Positions 25,212 through 27,792 of a stretch of DNA of 64,000 bases are shown here, in pieces; positions within the stretch are counted from its first letter, which is position 1; each line of letters begins with the position of its first letter. Origin of the DNA: Candidatus Limnocylindrales bacterium (GTDB taxonomy: Bacteria; Desulfobacterota; Binatia; UBA1149; CAITLU01); NCBI GenBank assembly GCA_035571835.1, contig DATNBU010000039.1, positions 1 to 64,000 on the forward strand. The letters are read 5' to 3'. The notes under the pieces are model-generated. The model made no database searches and was not told where the DNA came from. It saw nothing but the letters and a program-made list of their open reading frames with translations. Both the position numbers and the translations under genes were made by a program.

Positions 25212-26100
25212 CGCTCAGCCCTGCGACCGCACCCGACCTCGTGCAACCGACGATCGAGATGCGCGCTTCGGCCGCAGCCGCGAGCATCTCGTCGCGGTCG
25301 AGCAGCAGCGTGGCGCCGGCTTCGACGGCCAGTACCGACGCTCCGGCCTCGACCATCGTTGCGATGGTCTTGCGTCCGACGGCGGGCACGTCGAAGCGCA
25401 TGTCCTGGTCGTGCTTGGCGGTCTTGACGACGACGAGCGCGCCGCGCCGCAGGCGCCCGGCACGCAGCACGGTCTCGTCGGTGCCTTCGACGGCTTCGAC
25501 CGCGAGCACGACGCCGCGCTCGACGACGACGCTCTGACCGACGTCGGCCGCGCCGAGCGCGGCAAGCACGCGGCATCCGGCACGGATGTCGGAGAGCGCC
25601 TGCTCGGACGGCTTCGGCCCGGCGATGCGCCCCGCCGGTGCGAGCAGCGTGTCGAGGAAGATCGTCGACGGTACGATCTCGATGCCCTCGCCTTCGAGCT
25701 CGGTGGCGAGAAGCCGCAGCAGCGCATCGTCGCCGTGCCCTCCGGCCGTCAGTGCGCGGCGAAGAAAGAGGATCCCGCGCAGGTCCGGCCGGATCTGCGT
25801 CAGCGAGCGGACCTTGTCGATGCCGCCGGCCATGACCGCGCGCCGCACACCGGCCGCGCGCAGCGCGCGCAGCAGCTTTCCGAGCTGGCCGACGCGAACC
25901 CACGTGATCTCGTCGACGTCATGTCCAAGTTCTTCGACGGTCTCGCCGTGATGCGCGACCGCCGCCACATGCAGCCCGCGGCGGCGCGCTTCGCGCGCAA
26001 ACAGCAGCGGAAAGCGGCCGTTGCCGGCGATGAGGCCGATGACTTCCGGAGCGGCGCCGGTTCCGGCGCGGCCGCCGGCCTCTCCGCTTCCCGATGTCAT
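25204..26100 (-). CDS. lpxI: UDP-2,3-diacylglucosamine pyrophosphatase LpxI
   Basis: A 298-residue LpxI (DUF1009) enzyme, the alternative to LpxH, cleaving UDP-diacylglucosamine to lipid X and UMP. The N-terminal half begins VIGLIAGNGRFPLLFA, and the C-terminal catalytic half carries KTAKHDQDMRFDVPAVG, the family signature. The first 18 residues are an unconserved Gly-rich extension, so a later start is possible. It overlaps lpxA by 4 bases at its start and the oxidoreductase by 8 at its end. Use of lpxI fits the alpha/delta-proteobacterial pattern. Confidence 0.95.
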   Translation of the reverse strand: MTSGSGEAGGRAGTGAAPEVIGLIAGNGRFPLLFAREARRRGLHVAAVAHHGETVEELGHDVDEITWVRVGQLGKLLRALRAAGVRRAVMAGGIDKVRSLTQIRPDLRGILFLRRALTAGGHGDDALLRLLATELEGEGIEIVPSTIFLDTLLAPAGRIAGPKPSEQALSDIRAGCRVLAALGAADVGQSVVVERGVVLAVEAVEGTDETVLRAGRLRRGALVVVKTAKHDQDMRFDVPAVGRKTIATMVEAGASVLAVEAGATLLLDRDEMLAAAAEARISIVGCTRSGAVAGLSDD

Positions 26101-26876
26101 CGACAGATCCCGCGCTGGGAGCCCTCGATGAAACGGATCAGGTGCTCGACGCGCGGTTCACCCTCCGCGTCGGCGCGCAGCGCTTCGAGCGCATCCTGCA
26201 GGCGCATGCCGGAGCGGAAGATGGTGCGGTACGCCGCGCGCAGCGCCTGGATGGTCTCGGTGGAAAACCCGCGCCGCCGGATGCCGATCACATTGAGGCC
26301 CTGCATCGCCGCGCGGTCACCCGCGGCCATGCCGTATGGAATCACGTCGAGCGTGACCATCGCACCGCCGCCGAGAATCGCCGACTCGCCGATGCGCACG
26401 AACTGGTGGATCGCCACCAGCCCGCCGACGATCGCGTGGTCCTCGATCGTCACGTGCCCGGCAAGCGTCGCCGCATTCGCCATGACGACGTGATCGCCGA
26501 CGATGCAGTCGTGCGCAACGTGTGCGTACGCCATGAACATGCCGTGATTGCCGACGCGCGTCGTGCCGCCGCCGTGCTCGGTCGCGCGATTCATCGTGAC
26601 GAACTCGCGCACGATGTTGTCGTCGCCGATATCGAGCCGCGTCGGGCTGCCCTTGTACTTGAGATCCTGCGGCGCCGTCCCGATCGAAGACTGCCCCGTG
26701 AACGTGCAGCGCTCCCCGATCGTCACGAGGCCGTCGAGCACCACGTGCGGCCCGATCGCGGTATCCCGCCCGACCTTCGCCCCGCCCCCGACGATCGCAT
26801 ACGGCCCGACGGTAACCCCGTCGTCGAGCTGAGCGCCGGCATCGACGATCGCGGTGGGATGAATCCGAACGCTCAC
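26097..26876 (-). CDS. lpxA: UDP-N-acetylglucosamine O-acyltransferase
   Basis: The first lipid A enzyme, 259 residues, a left-handed parallel beta-helix with hexapeptide repeats and a C-terminal helical domain. GTAPQDLKYKG and AHVAHDCIVGD (catalytic His) are conserved. The open frame runs upstream to 27044 through the repeat array, but GTG 26876 gives the standard N-terminus (SVRIHPTAIVD) and normal length. The E. coli sequence TIHRGT is TMNRAT here. lpxD and fabZ, normally just upstream, are absent; the gap instead holds duplicated palindromic repeats. Confidence 0.95.
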   Translation of the reverse strand: MSVRIHPTAIVDAGAQLDDGVTVGPYAIVGGGAKVGRDTAIGPHVVLDGLVTIGERCTFTGQSSIGTAPQDLKYKGSPTRLDIGDDNIVREFVTMNRATEHGGGTTRVGNHGMFMAYAHVAHDCIVGDHVVMANAATLAGHVTIEDHAIVGGLVAIHQFVRIGESAILGGGAMVTLDVIPYGMAAGDRAAMQGLNVIGIRRRGFSTETIQALRAAYRTIFRSGMRLQDALEALRADAEGEPRVEHLIRFIEGSQRGICR

Positions 26877-26910
26877 GCGAACCCGCTCATTCCCTGAGAA
26901 ATGTTCGACA

Positions 26911-27026
26911 TCCGCGCGCCGGGGCGTGGTGCGGGGGTGCCGGCGTGCGAGTCGTTCCGCAGCGAAGCGAGGACTAAAGCGAGCGCGCCGGTACCCCCGT
27001 GCCGCGTACCGGCACACACAGTGACG
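26911..27026. repeat. Palindromic repeat element, copy A
   Basis: A 116-base unit repeated once more at 27126-27241 with no insertions or deletions and few substitutions. Its core forms a long hairpin: GGGGGTGCCGGCGTGC (26933-26948) pairs with the GCGCGCCGGTACCCCC arm ending at 26998. Every mismatch in the stem is a G-T pair on the plus strand. The loop contains the small inner hairpin CGC-AGCGAA-GCG. It resembles a REP/MITE-like dispersed element rather than a gene. Confidence 0.88.
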
Positions 27027-27125
27027 CCACGGTGAAAAAGGCACGTCGCGGTCACGACATTCGCGGGCCGGCGCACGAAGCGTCCGGCAACATCCGCGTG
27101 CCGGGGTGTGACGCGTCCAGCAGCA
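27027..27125. other. Spacer between the two palindromic repeats, with degenerate partial copies
   Basis: This stretch has no gene. It carries partial echoes of the flanking repeats: CGCGGGCCGGCGC at 27062-27074 recurs at 27129-27141, and ACATCCGCGTGCCGGGGTGTG near 27090 echoes ACATCCGCGCGCCGGGGCGTG at 26908 with two changes. The array seems to have grown by partial duplications. Confidence 0.6.
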
Positions 27126-27241
27126 TGCGCGGGCCGGCGCGTGGTGCGGGGGTGTCGGCGTGCGAGTCGTTCCGCAGCGAAGCGAGGACTAAAGCGAGCG
27201 CGCCGATACCCCCGTGCCGCGCGACGGCCCACACAGTGACG
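27126..27241. repeat. Palindromic repeat element, copy B
   Basis: Second copy of the 116-base element, offset by exactly 215 bases from copy A. Relative to copy A its left arm has T where A has C, and its right arm has A where A has G, at the two positions that pair with each other, so the stem is preserved by a compensatory change. It ends 17 bases before the skp stop codon. Confidence 0.88.
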
Positions 27242-27258
27242 TCCCATACGGGATCCGG

Positions 27259-27792
27259 CTAGATCGACTTGTCCGCTAGCTGGATAACTTCGGTGGTGAT
27301 GTCGGCTTTTTGCGAGATGTAGAGCAGCGTTCCGGCGTCGAGCACGAGGTCGTAGCCGTTATCCTTCGCAAACTTCTCGATGACCGTGCGGAACTTCGTC
27401 ATCATGTCGTTTTCGATCTCGCCGCGGCTCTTGTCGAAGTCGCGCTGCGCGTCTTCCTTCAGGCGCTTGGCGTCGCGAAGCTGCTTCTCGTACTCCTCGC
27501 CGAGCTTGGCCTTCTCGGTGTCGTTCAGCACCGCCATGCGCTTGGTGATGTCGTCCTGCAGCTTCTTGACGTCTTCCATCTTCTTCTGGAGCGTCTTCTC
27601 GGCCGTGTCGGCCTTGGCCTTGAGCTTCGCGCTCGACTCCTTGCCGAGCTTGCTCTCCGCGAGCAGGCGCGGCGTGACGATGTAGCCGATCTTCAGGTCG
27701 GCGGCCGAGGCCGTTGCGGCGGAAACGCCGACGAGCGCGAGTGCCGCCATCGAAAGGCCCGCCAGGGCAGTCATAGTCCAAGTCTTCTTCAT
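27259..27792 (-). CDS. skp: OmpH/Skp family periplasmic chaperone
   Basis: A 177-residue periplasmic chaperone that holds unfolded outer-membrane proteins for BamA. ATG 27792 follows AGGAG and gives a clean signal peptide ending ...ATASA before ADLKIGYIV. The body is a long charged coiled coil (about 45-135), and the C-terminal strands (YDLVLDAGTLLYIS) close the trimer base, as in Skp. It follows bamA by 22 bases. The gene downstream should be lpxD by convention; here the repeat array begins instead. Confidence 0.92.
   Translation of the reverse strand: MKKTWTMTALAGLSMAALALVGVSAATASAADLKIGYIVTPRLLAESKLGKESSAKLKAKADTAEKTLQKKMEDVKKLQDDITKRMAVLNDTEKAKLGEEYEKQLRDAKRLKEDAQRDFDKSRGEIENDMMTKFRTVIEKFAKDNGYDLVLDAGTLLYISQKADITTEVIQLADKSI

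Follow-up and report, generated by a model that had tools for sequence, protein, structure and literature searches.

A dispersed hairpin repeat with a shared tip and compensated stems, usually antisense to the adjoining gene, in several bacterial phyla

The spacer between the skp-like and lpxA-like genes of this genome holds two copies of a palindromic element, and the locus raises the question of whether these palindromes are maintained as a folded structure or are the by-product of a recent duplication. The window, i.e., the whole stretch of DNA that was analysed, covers 64,000 nucleotides, and the assembly it belongs to is referred to below as the source genome. We take the two genes to be skp and lpxA on the basis of the earlier note on this DNA and of their sequences. 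The features of the locus are as follows.

26909..27026, plus strand: element copy A (repeat search: 118 nt, 92% identical to copy B; folding)
27124..27241, plus strand: element copy B (repeat search; folding)
26949..26983, plus strand: tip (35-nt core) of copy A, identical in 10 of 11 genome copies, with 1 mismatch in the remaining copy
27164..27198, plus strand: tip (35-nt core) of copy B (genome copies and alignment)
26962..26968, plus strand: GC-GAA-GC mini-hairpin at positions 9-15 of the tip of copy A (DNA fold; covariation of pair 9/15)
27177..27183, plus strand: GC-GAA-GC mini-hairpin of copy B (DNA fold; tip covariation)
26920..26945, plus strand: left stem arm of copy A, 26 positions (alignment A1, columns 1-26)
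26986..27011, plus strand: right stem arm of copy A (alignment A1, columns 67-92)
27135..27160, plus strand: left stem arm of copy B (alignment of the 11 own copies)
27201..27226, plus strand: right stem arm of copy B (alignment of the 11 own copies)
27057..27148, plus strand: imperfect direct repeats with 33-nt spacing, between the copies and into the left flank of copy B (repeat search, family D2)
27259..27792, minus strand: skp-like gene, ending in the stop codon 27259-27261; both elements lie past the stop and their tip strand is antisense
26097..26876, minus strand: lpxA-like gene, the next gene, on the same strand as skp; start placed by eye

By direct count the two copies, spaced by 215 nt as the earlier note had stated, are 92% identical, with 9 mismatches in 118 nt; the slightly shorter extents of 116 nt given in that note likewise contain 9 mismatches. 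The stem, which had been described as extendable to about 26 pairs, is found by folding as an inner stem of 25-26 pairs in the window copies, and the compensatory exchange of C-G for T-A between the copies is located at 26940/26991 (columns 21/72 of alignment A1). The further claim, that every other mismatch in the stem is G-T on the plus strand, is correct for nearly all of them, the remaining non-Watson-Crick cells of the aligned 26-pair stems being G.T except for one G.A near the base in each copy. Plus-strand folds under RNA parameters have z-scores of -5.90 and -8.35, and both copies beat 200 of 200 shuffled sequences; the minus strand folds more weakly in both copies, under RNA and also under DNA parameters. 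The repeat search at default settings reported no inverted repeats, the stem being revealed by folding and covariation. The repeats spaced by 33 nt at 27057-27148 look like the left flank of the element.

The tip occurs 11 times in the source genome (5.46 Mb in 46 contigs), 10 of the occurrences being identical over 30 nt and one carrying a single mismatch, while the pattern read backward, used as a control, has no match in the same genome. The copies form pairs in the window and in contig 40 (105 nt apart), a triple in contig 8 (121 nt apart) and four singles. They align without gaps, with a fixed core and varying stem sequences: 16 of the 26 stem pairs have changed on both sides, 94.9% of the cells are paired, and the number of double-changed cells is 41 compared to 13.7 after shuffling, with none of 500 shuffles as high. 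Pairing falls to 30-48% in slid registers. The structural reading was to be abandoned, according to the earlier note, if the element occurred only here or if further copies had no compensatory pairs and no transcript; the search for such copies returned a genome-wide family, as that note had anticipated, and compensatory pairs within it. A recent simple duplication, with palindromes arising by chance and no family behind them, would account for the window pair, which is indeed a direct repeat, but is refuted by the nine additional copies in the genome, the dozens found elsewhere and the covariation, and we assign it a negligible probability.

The occurrence outside the source genome was assessed with an exact search for the 22-nt tip in one genome per species (84,980 species), which yielded 93 occurrences in 84 stretches. 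Among the 80 stretches with titles listed, 72 bear names of Coriobacteriia (presumed from the genus names, with two less familiar genera checked), 4 to Bdellovibrionales, 2 to Omnitrophica and 2 to Fusobacteria. One of the Fusobacteria bearers is an isolate, Propionigenium maris, and several Coriobacteriia bearers are isolates as well; the spread is therefore not explained by mixed-up assemblies. Twenty chosen bearing genomes contain 1-25 tips each at up to 3 mismatches, the upper figure being that of genome G117, and no matches to the backward control. The tip mostly continues as ...GGACTGTYYGAGC in Coriobacteriia and Bdellovibrionales, and as ...GGACTAAAGCGAGC in the window version. Only 2 of 6 distinct copies from Fusobacteria reach the strict stem score, which indicates that the long stem is mostly missing in that branch. 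The occurrence is patchy: of the 47 genomes in the family to which the Bdellovibrionaceae metagenome-assembled genome (MAG) belongs, only 2 contain the tip. In a search with a 21-mer that allowed up to 2 mismatches, a genome of the same genus as the source has no tip, and of 96 further relatives six have one match each, all with 2 mismatches, which we take for chance. Plasmid and phage records gave no match to the window version of the element at E 1e-5, and viral contigs contain no exact 21-mer tip. In an Olsenella MAG (G108, contig 224, 9439-9707), five tips with 0, 2, 3, 3 and 3 mismatches follow one another at 62-nt spacing in what looks like a decaying tandem array.

The Bdellovibrionales copies provide a second set of stems. 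Their outer arms are unrelated between copies and still 91.3% of the cells pair in the 14 of 15 copies included in alignment A3 (the omitted copy, L252, is on the minus strand and has a poor stem); both sides have changed in 20 of the 22 outer pairs, with 113 such cells compared to 38.1 after shuffling (0 of 500 shuffles as high), and all slid registers score lower. The stem at L070 spans 44 positions. More generally, strict stems have a median span of 22 and a range of 10-47 among the 88 elements scoring at least 10. The counts of stems, wobbles, T-runs and tags given here leave out stems with a strict score below 10 (18 of 133 in the wobble count); L172 is left out of the last three, and the six far-relative matches L043-L048 are left out of all four. 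Arms are not always different between copies: 19 of the 20 loci read in G117 have a common inner arm, as expected of recent spread, and three copies in one MAG (L102, L112 and L135) also have common arms.

Changes at orthologous sites allow the stems to be followed in place. Twelve comparisons over 18 stem positions, 11 of them in Gordonibacter with orthology shown and one between two Paraeggerthella records judged by eye, comprise 168 unchanged and 48 changed pairs; because two loci were used twice, the comparisons are not all independent. Among the changed pairs, 30 have changed on both sides and still pair, 13 have changed on one side and pair as G.T, and 5 are broken (3 with A.C). This set leaves out L310/L315, which is affected by a nested event, and a TsaB-like locus whose tip is altered or reversed. 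It also leaves out additional combinations of loci that were in use elsewhere in the set, L317/L324 and L320/L327 among them. Wholesale replacement of arms between orthologues was considered and dropped when comparison in register gave stepwise double changes. The compensatory changes exceed their controls, and a folded molecule is conserved; the selection on a folded molecule proposed in the earlier note is borne out by compensation among the 11 own copies, in Bdellovibrionales and between orthologues. Compensation in place implies continual selection for mobility or, with equal likelihood, a use of the hairpin by the host, and its steadiness at orthologous sites suggests a host role rather than mobility alone.

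Double changes could also arise without selection if template switching at imperfect palindromes copies one arm onto the other. The flanks of the orthologous loci are about 73-94% identical, and the double changes between orthologues can be clustered as such a process would have it; in L313/L314 they occupy 6 of 18 positions while the flanks are 93% identical. However, this palindrome correction predicts no excess of G.T over A.C mismatches, and such an excess is observed. In strict stems (115 of 133 elements, with equal penalties for G.T and A.C), the tip strand has 127 G.T and 24 A.C, and the ratio is still 67:24 without the source genome (20:0) and G117 (40:0), whose copies inherit shared wobbles. 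Other penalties gave totals of 158:48 and 42:17. A looser alignment in which stems ran into the flanks showed no bias (319 G.T versus 303 A.C) and was replaced by the strict alignments. Palindrome correction also leaves the cross-phylum tip and the antisense placement described below unexplained, and we consider it improbable. The strand that tolerates wobble pairs usually runs antisense to the neighbouring gene, and the data show a dispersed family under structural selection on one strand.

Placement relative to genes was derived from heuristic gene calls, which combine open frames with codon composition, and not from annotation. By these calls the elements mostly lie immediately past a stop codon. 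In 67 of 77 copies the gene next to the element is antisense to the tip strand, the other 10 being without that placement; by group, the counts are 9 of 11 in the source genome (10 of 11 when skp and lpxA are read directly), 19 of 20 in G117, 28 of 31 in Gordonibacter with orthologues included, and 11 of 15 in Bdellovibrionales. The tip is inside the called frame of the adjoining gene in 13 of the 67 antisense copies. The distance from the tip to the stop codon of the downstream antisense gene is 40-60 nt in 32 of 54 measured cases, which places the stop near the stem base. When the 93 exact tips were assigned by a cruder method, 66 lay outside called frames, 50 of these with a downstream antisense gene. 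The earlier note had suggested an RNA antisense to the lpx operon; the folded strand is in fact antisense to the operon, but an RNA aimed at lpx in particular is unlikely because the same placement recurs at other genes.

An intrinsic terminator was rejected, as the U-tract is missing on either strand. The share of T past the stem on the tip strand is 0.01-0.25 compared to a background of 0.17-0.28 in five groups, and of 138 elements only 1 has a run of at least 4 T past the stem on the tip strand, and 2 have one on the opposite strand. On the sense strand past the hairpin, U is moderately enriched without forming runs in three of the five groups (0.29-0.41 versus 0.17-0.20). Known RNA families were likewise rejected: at the gathering score, Rfam searches of ten loci found tRNAs only, and a relaxed threshold applied to 26500-27700 of the window and to 5300-5600 of L127 gave only miRNA models far below the gathering score (E 0.0018 to 1.7).

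These observations bear on the possibility that the element functions as RNA, such that antisense RNA running into the 3' end of the gene folds and its tip binds a protein or pauses the polymerase, shielding the 3' end. The G.T bias on the mostly antisense strand and the compensation in place are what a folded RNA would produce, and the antisense placement and the common distance from the stop codon are in keeping with it. Nonetheless, we regard this explanation as rather unlikely, given that T-runs are lacking past the stem on the tip strand, that no sigma-70-like promoter was found in 26850-27300, that Rfam has no match at the element, and that the triloop of the tip suits a DNA mini-hairpin.

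The last point derives from the tip itself, a stretch of 22-35 nt that hardly varies. Across 125 distinct tips, the pair formed by positions 9 and 15 is GC in 116, AT in 8, GT in 1 and AC in none (the AT tips traced to their source come from two genomes), and the triloop is GNA in 113 of the 125, in a sample that the exact-match scan biases toward GAA. The resulting GC-GNA-GC mini-hairpin is predicted in both window copies with DNA parameters but not with RNA parameters. GNA loops closed by G-C pairs are reported to form extraordinarily stable, nuclease-resistant DNA mini-hairpins (PMC4686876). The d(GCGNAGC)-type molecules described there have the same GNA triloop and two closing G-C pairs as the tip, but appear as a structural motif in DNA aptamers, whereas here the structure would cap a natural dispersed repeat.

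The best reading, in our judgement about an even bet, is a dispersed DNA hairpin in which one strand folds and the tip serves for recognition. Single-stranded DNA is preferred over antisense RNA because of the DNA-type tip, the missing terminator and promoter signals, and the evidence for dispersal. The element may move, or work, or both, as a single-stranded DNA hairpin of one strand, with the tip read by sequence by a putative enzyme or binding protein acting in trans. The stem would need only to pair and present the tip, its sequence being free to drift under the pairing constraint, and local arrays such as the window pair probably arise by tandem duplication after insertion. Against this reading, we reason that at genes co-oriented with replication the lagging-strand template would be the strand opposite to the tip strand; a comparison with replication found a weak skew and placed no origin. 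A wider view, which we offer tentatively, is that the elements act as genome punctuation across phyla: a universal tip would be recognised in a folded single strand that runs antisense to the gene, and a cell function common to many lineages, either DNA-hairpin binding or the blocking of antisense transcription, would maintain it at gene ends, with stems of any pairing sequence.

Mobility is indicated by sites with and without the element. The skp-lpxA spacer of a sister genome in the same genus is 28 nt long and element-free, and an empty site was also seen in one species of Gordonibacter; both are too diverged for the junctions, and with them any target-site duplication, to be read. In Gordonibacter, the linker of a protein that we take for TsaB by its motifs (loci L281, L282, L283 and L301) contains the element in frame in two species, with the tip altered in one. 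The element is reversed in a third species and missing in a fourth, and the locus is unreadable in a fifth. L282, and L310 near 1522, seem to record nested events, with another hairpin in place of the tip or inside it, which suggests that the tip itself can be a target.

The candidate mobiliser named in the earlier note was a REP-associated tyrosine transposase (RAYT), a Y1 HUH enzyme. A REP-type element moved by RAYT would agree with the palindromic form and the extragenic position near gene ends, as REPs are characterised in the literature (PMC3733652), and the source genome does have one Y1_Tnp match. However, 7 of 16 bearing genomes have no Y1_Tnp match and one more has a match only below the family cut-off, and a search of 28 Y1_Tnp loci that allowed up to 2 mismatches found no tip, so dependence on RAYT was dropped. 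REP stems are 6-13 bp long in the GTAG class and 8-9 bp in the CGTC class, with a terminal tag, and the CGTC class has no known dedicated transposase, according to the same source (PMC3733652). The stems found here exceed that length, and in 138 elements the tags are about as frequent as chance predicts in the 8 nt next to the stem base: GTAG is found 3 times on the left and, reversed, 3 times on the right, CGTC 2 and 5 times, compared to chance expectations of about 2.3 and 5.7 per side, respectively. We consider a RAYT-mobilised REP very improbable. Dependence on a reverse transcriptase was also rejected at the level of PF00078 (RVT_1), with no match in the source genome or in 9 of 13 other bearing genomes tested. 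That no mobilising protein was found counts against the main reading.

Several known systems can be compared with the element. Integron attC sites have conserved recombination motifs at the stem base; in the present element the base is, by eye, the variable part. Rickettsia palindromic elements can be found in frame inside protein genes, which is reminiscent of the TsaB-like linker, but they are not known outside Rickettsia and relatives, whereas the tip occurs in several phyla. Two of them, RPE-4 and RPE-6, are mentioned in PMC3733652. REPs as described there are likewise short dispersed palindromes, mostly downstream of genes with some inside genes, in several phyla, but they have short tagged stems in place of a conserved tip on differing stems with a median span of 22 (PMC3733652). 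Gene-end inverted repeats and intrinsic terminators share the position downstream of stop codons; in a survey of perfect inverted repeats with short spacers, the spacers vary more than the arms (PMC13155455), whereas here the loop is fixed, the arms vary and there are no U-tracts. The usual gene-end pattern of a variable loop and conserved arms is therefore reversed.

In a paper on a REP search tool (PMC12306157), none of five taxon names looked for was found. Literature searches by tip sequence, by related-repeat words and by concept yielded no description of the tip, as judged by titles and the beginnings of abstracts in a collection covering few subscription papers. The significance of the family is that one tip is combined with mostly different stems in Coriobacteriia, Bdellovibrionales, Omnitrophica, Fusobacteria and the source lineage. 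This spread, together with the lack of two expected mobilising enzymes in many bearers, points to a candidate hairpin-reading protein or a shared host function at gene ends, and the consensus and copy lists make both options testable in cultured Coriobacteriia, for example Gordonibacter.

Two other hairpins were noticed near these loci. In genome G005, from the family of the source genome, the skp-lpxA spacer contains a different duplicated hairpin with its own conserved tip (L177; L368-L372). At up to 3 mismatches this tip occurs 5 times in G005, on arms that differ, and a search of 57 other genomes found no copy. The other is a GATCCTTCGCTNCGCTCAGGATGAC-like hairpin repeat (L225-L239, G117), which is often located 75-100 nt to the left of the tip of the main element, and its other strand has a tip of the GC-GNA-GC type in many copies. 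It has 16 matches in 13 of 49 loci, comprising 12 of 20 loci in G117 and 1 of 29 in Gordonibacter.
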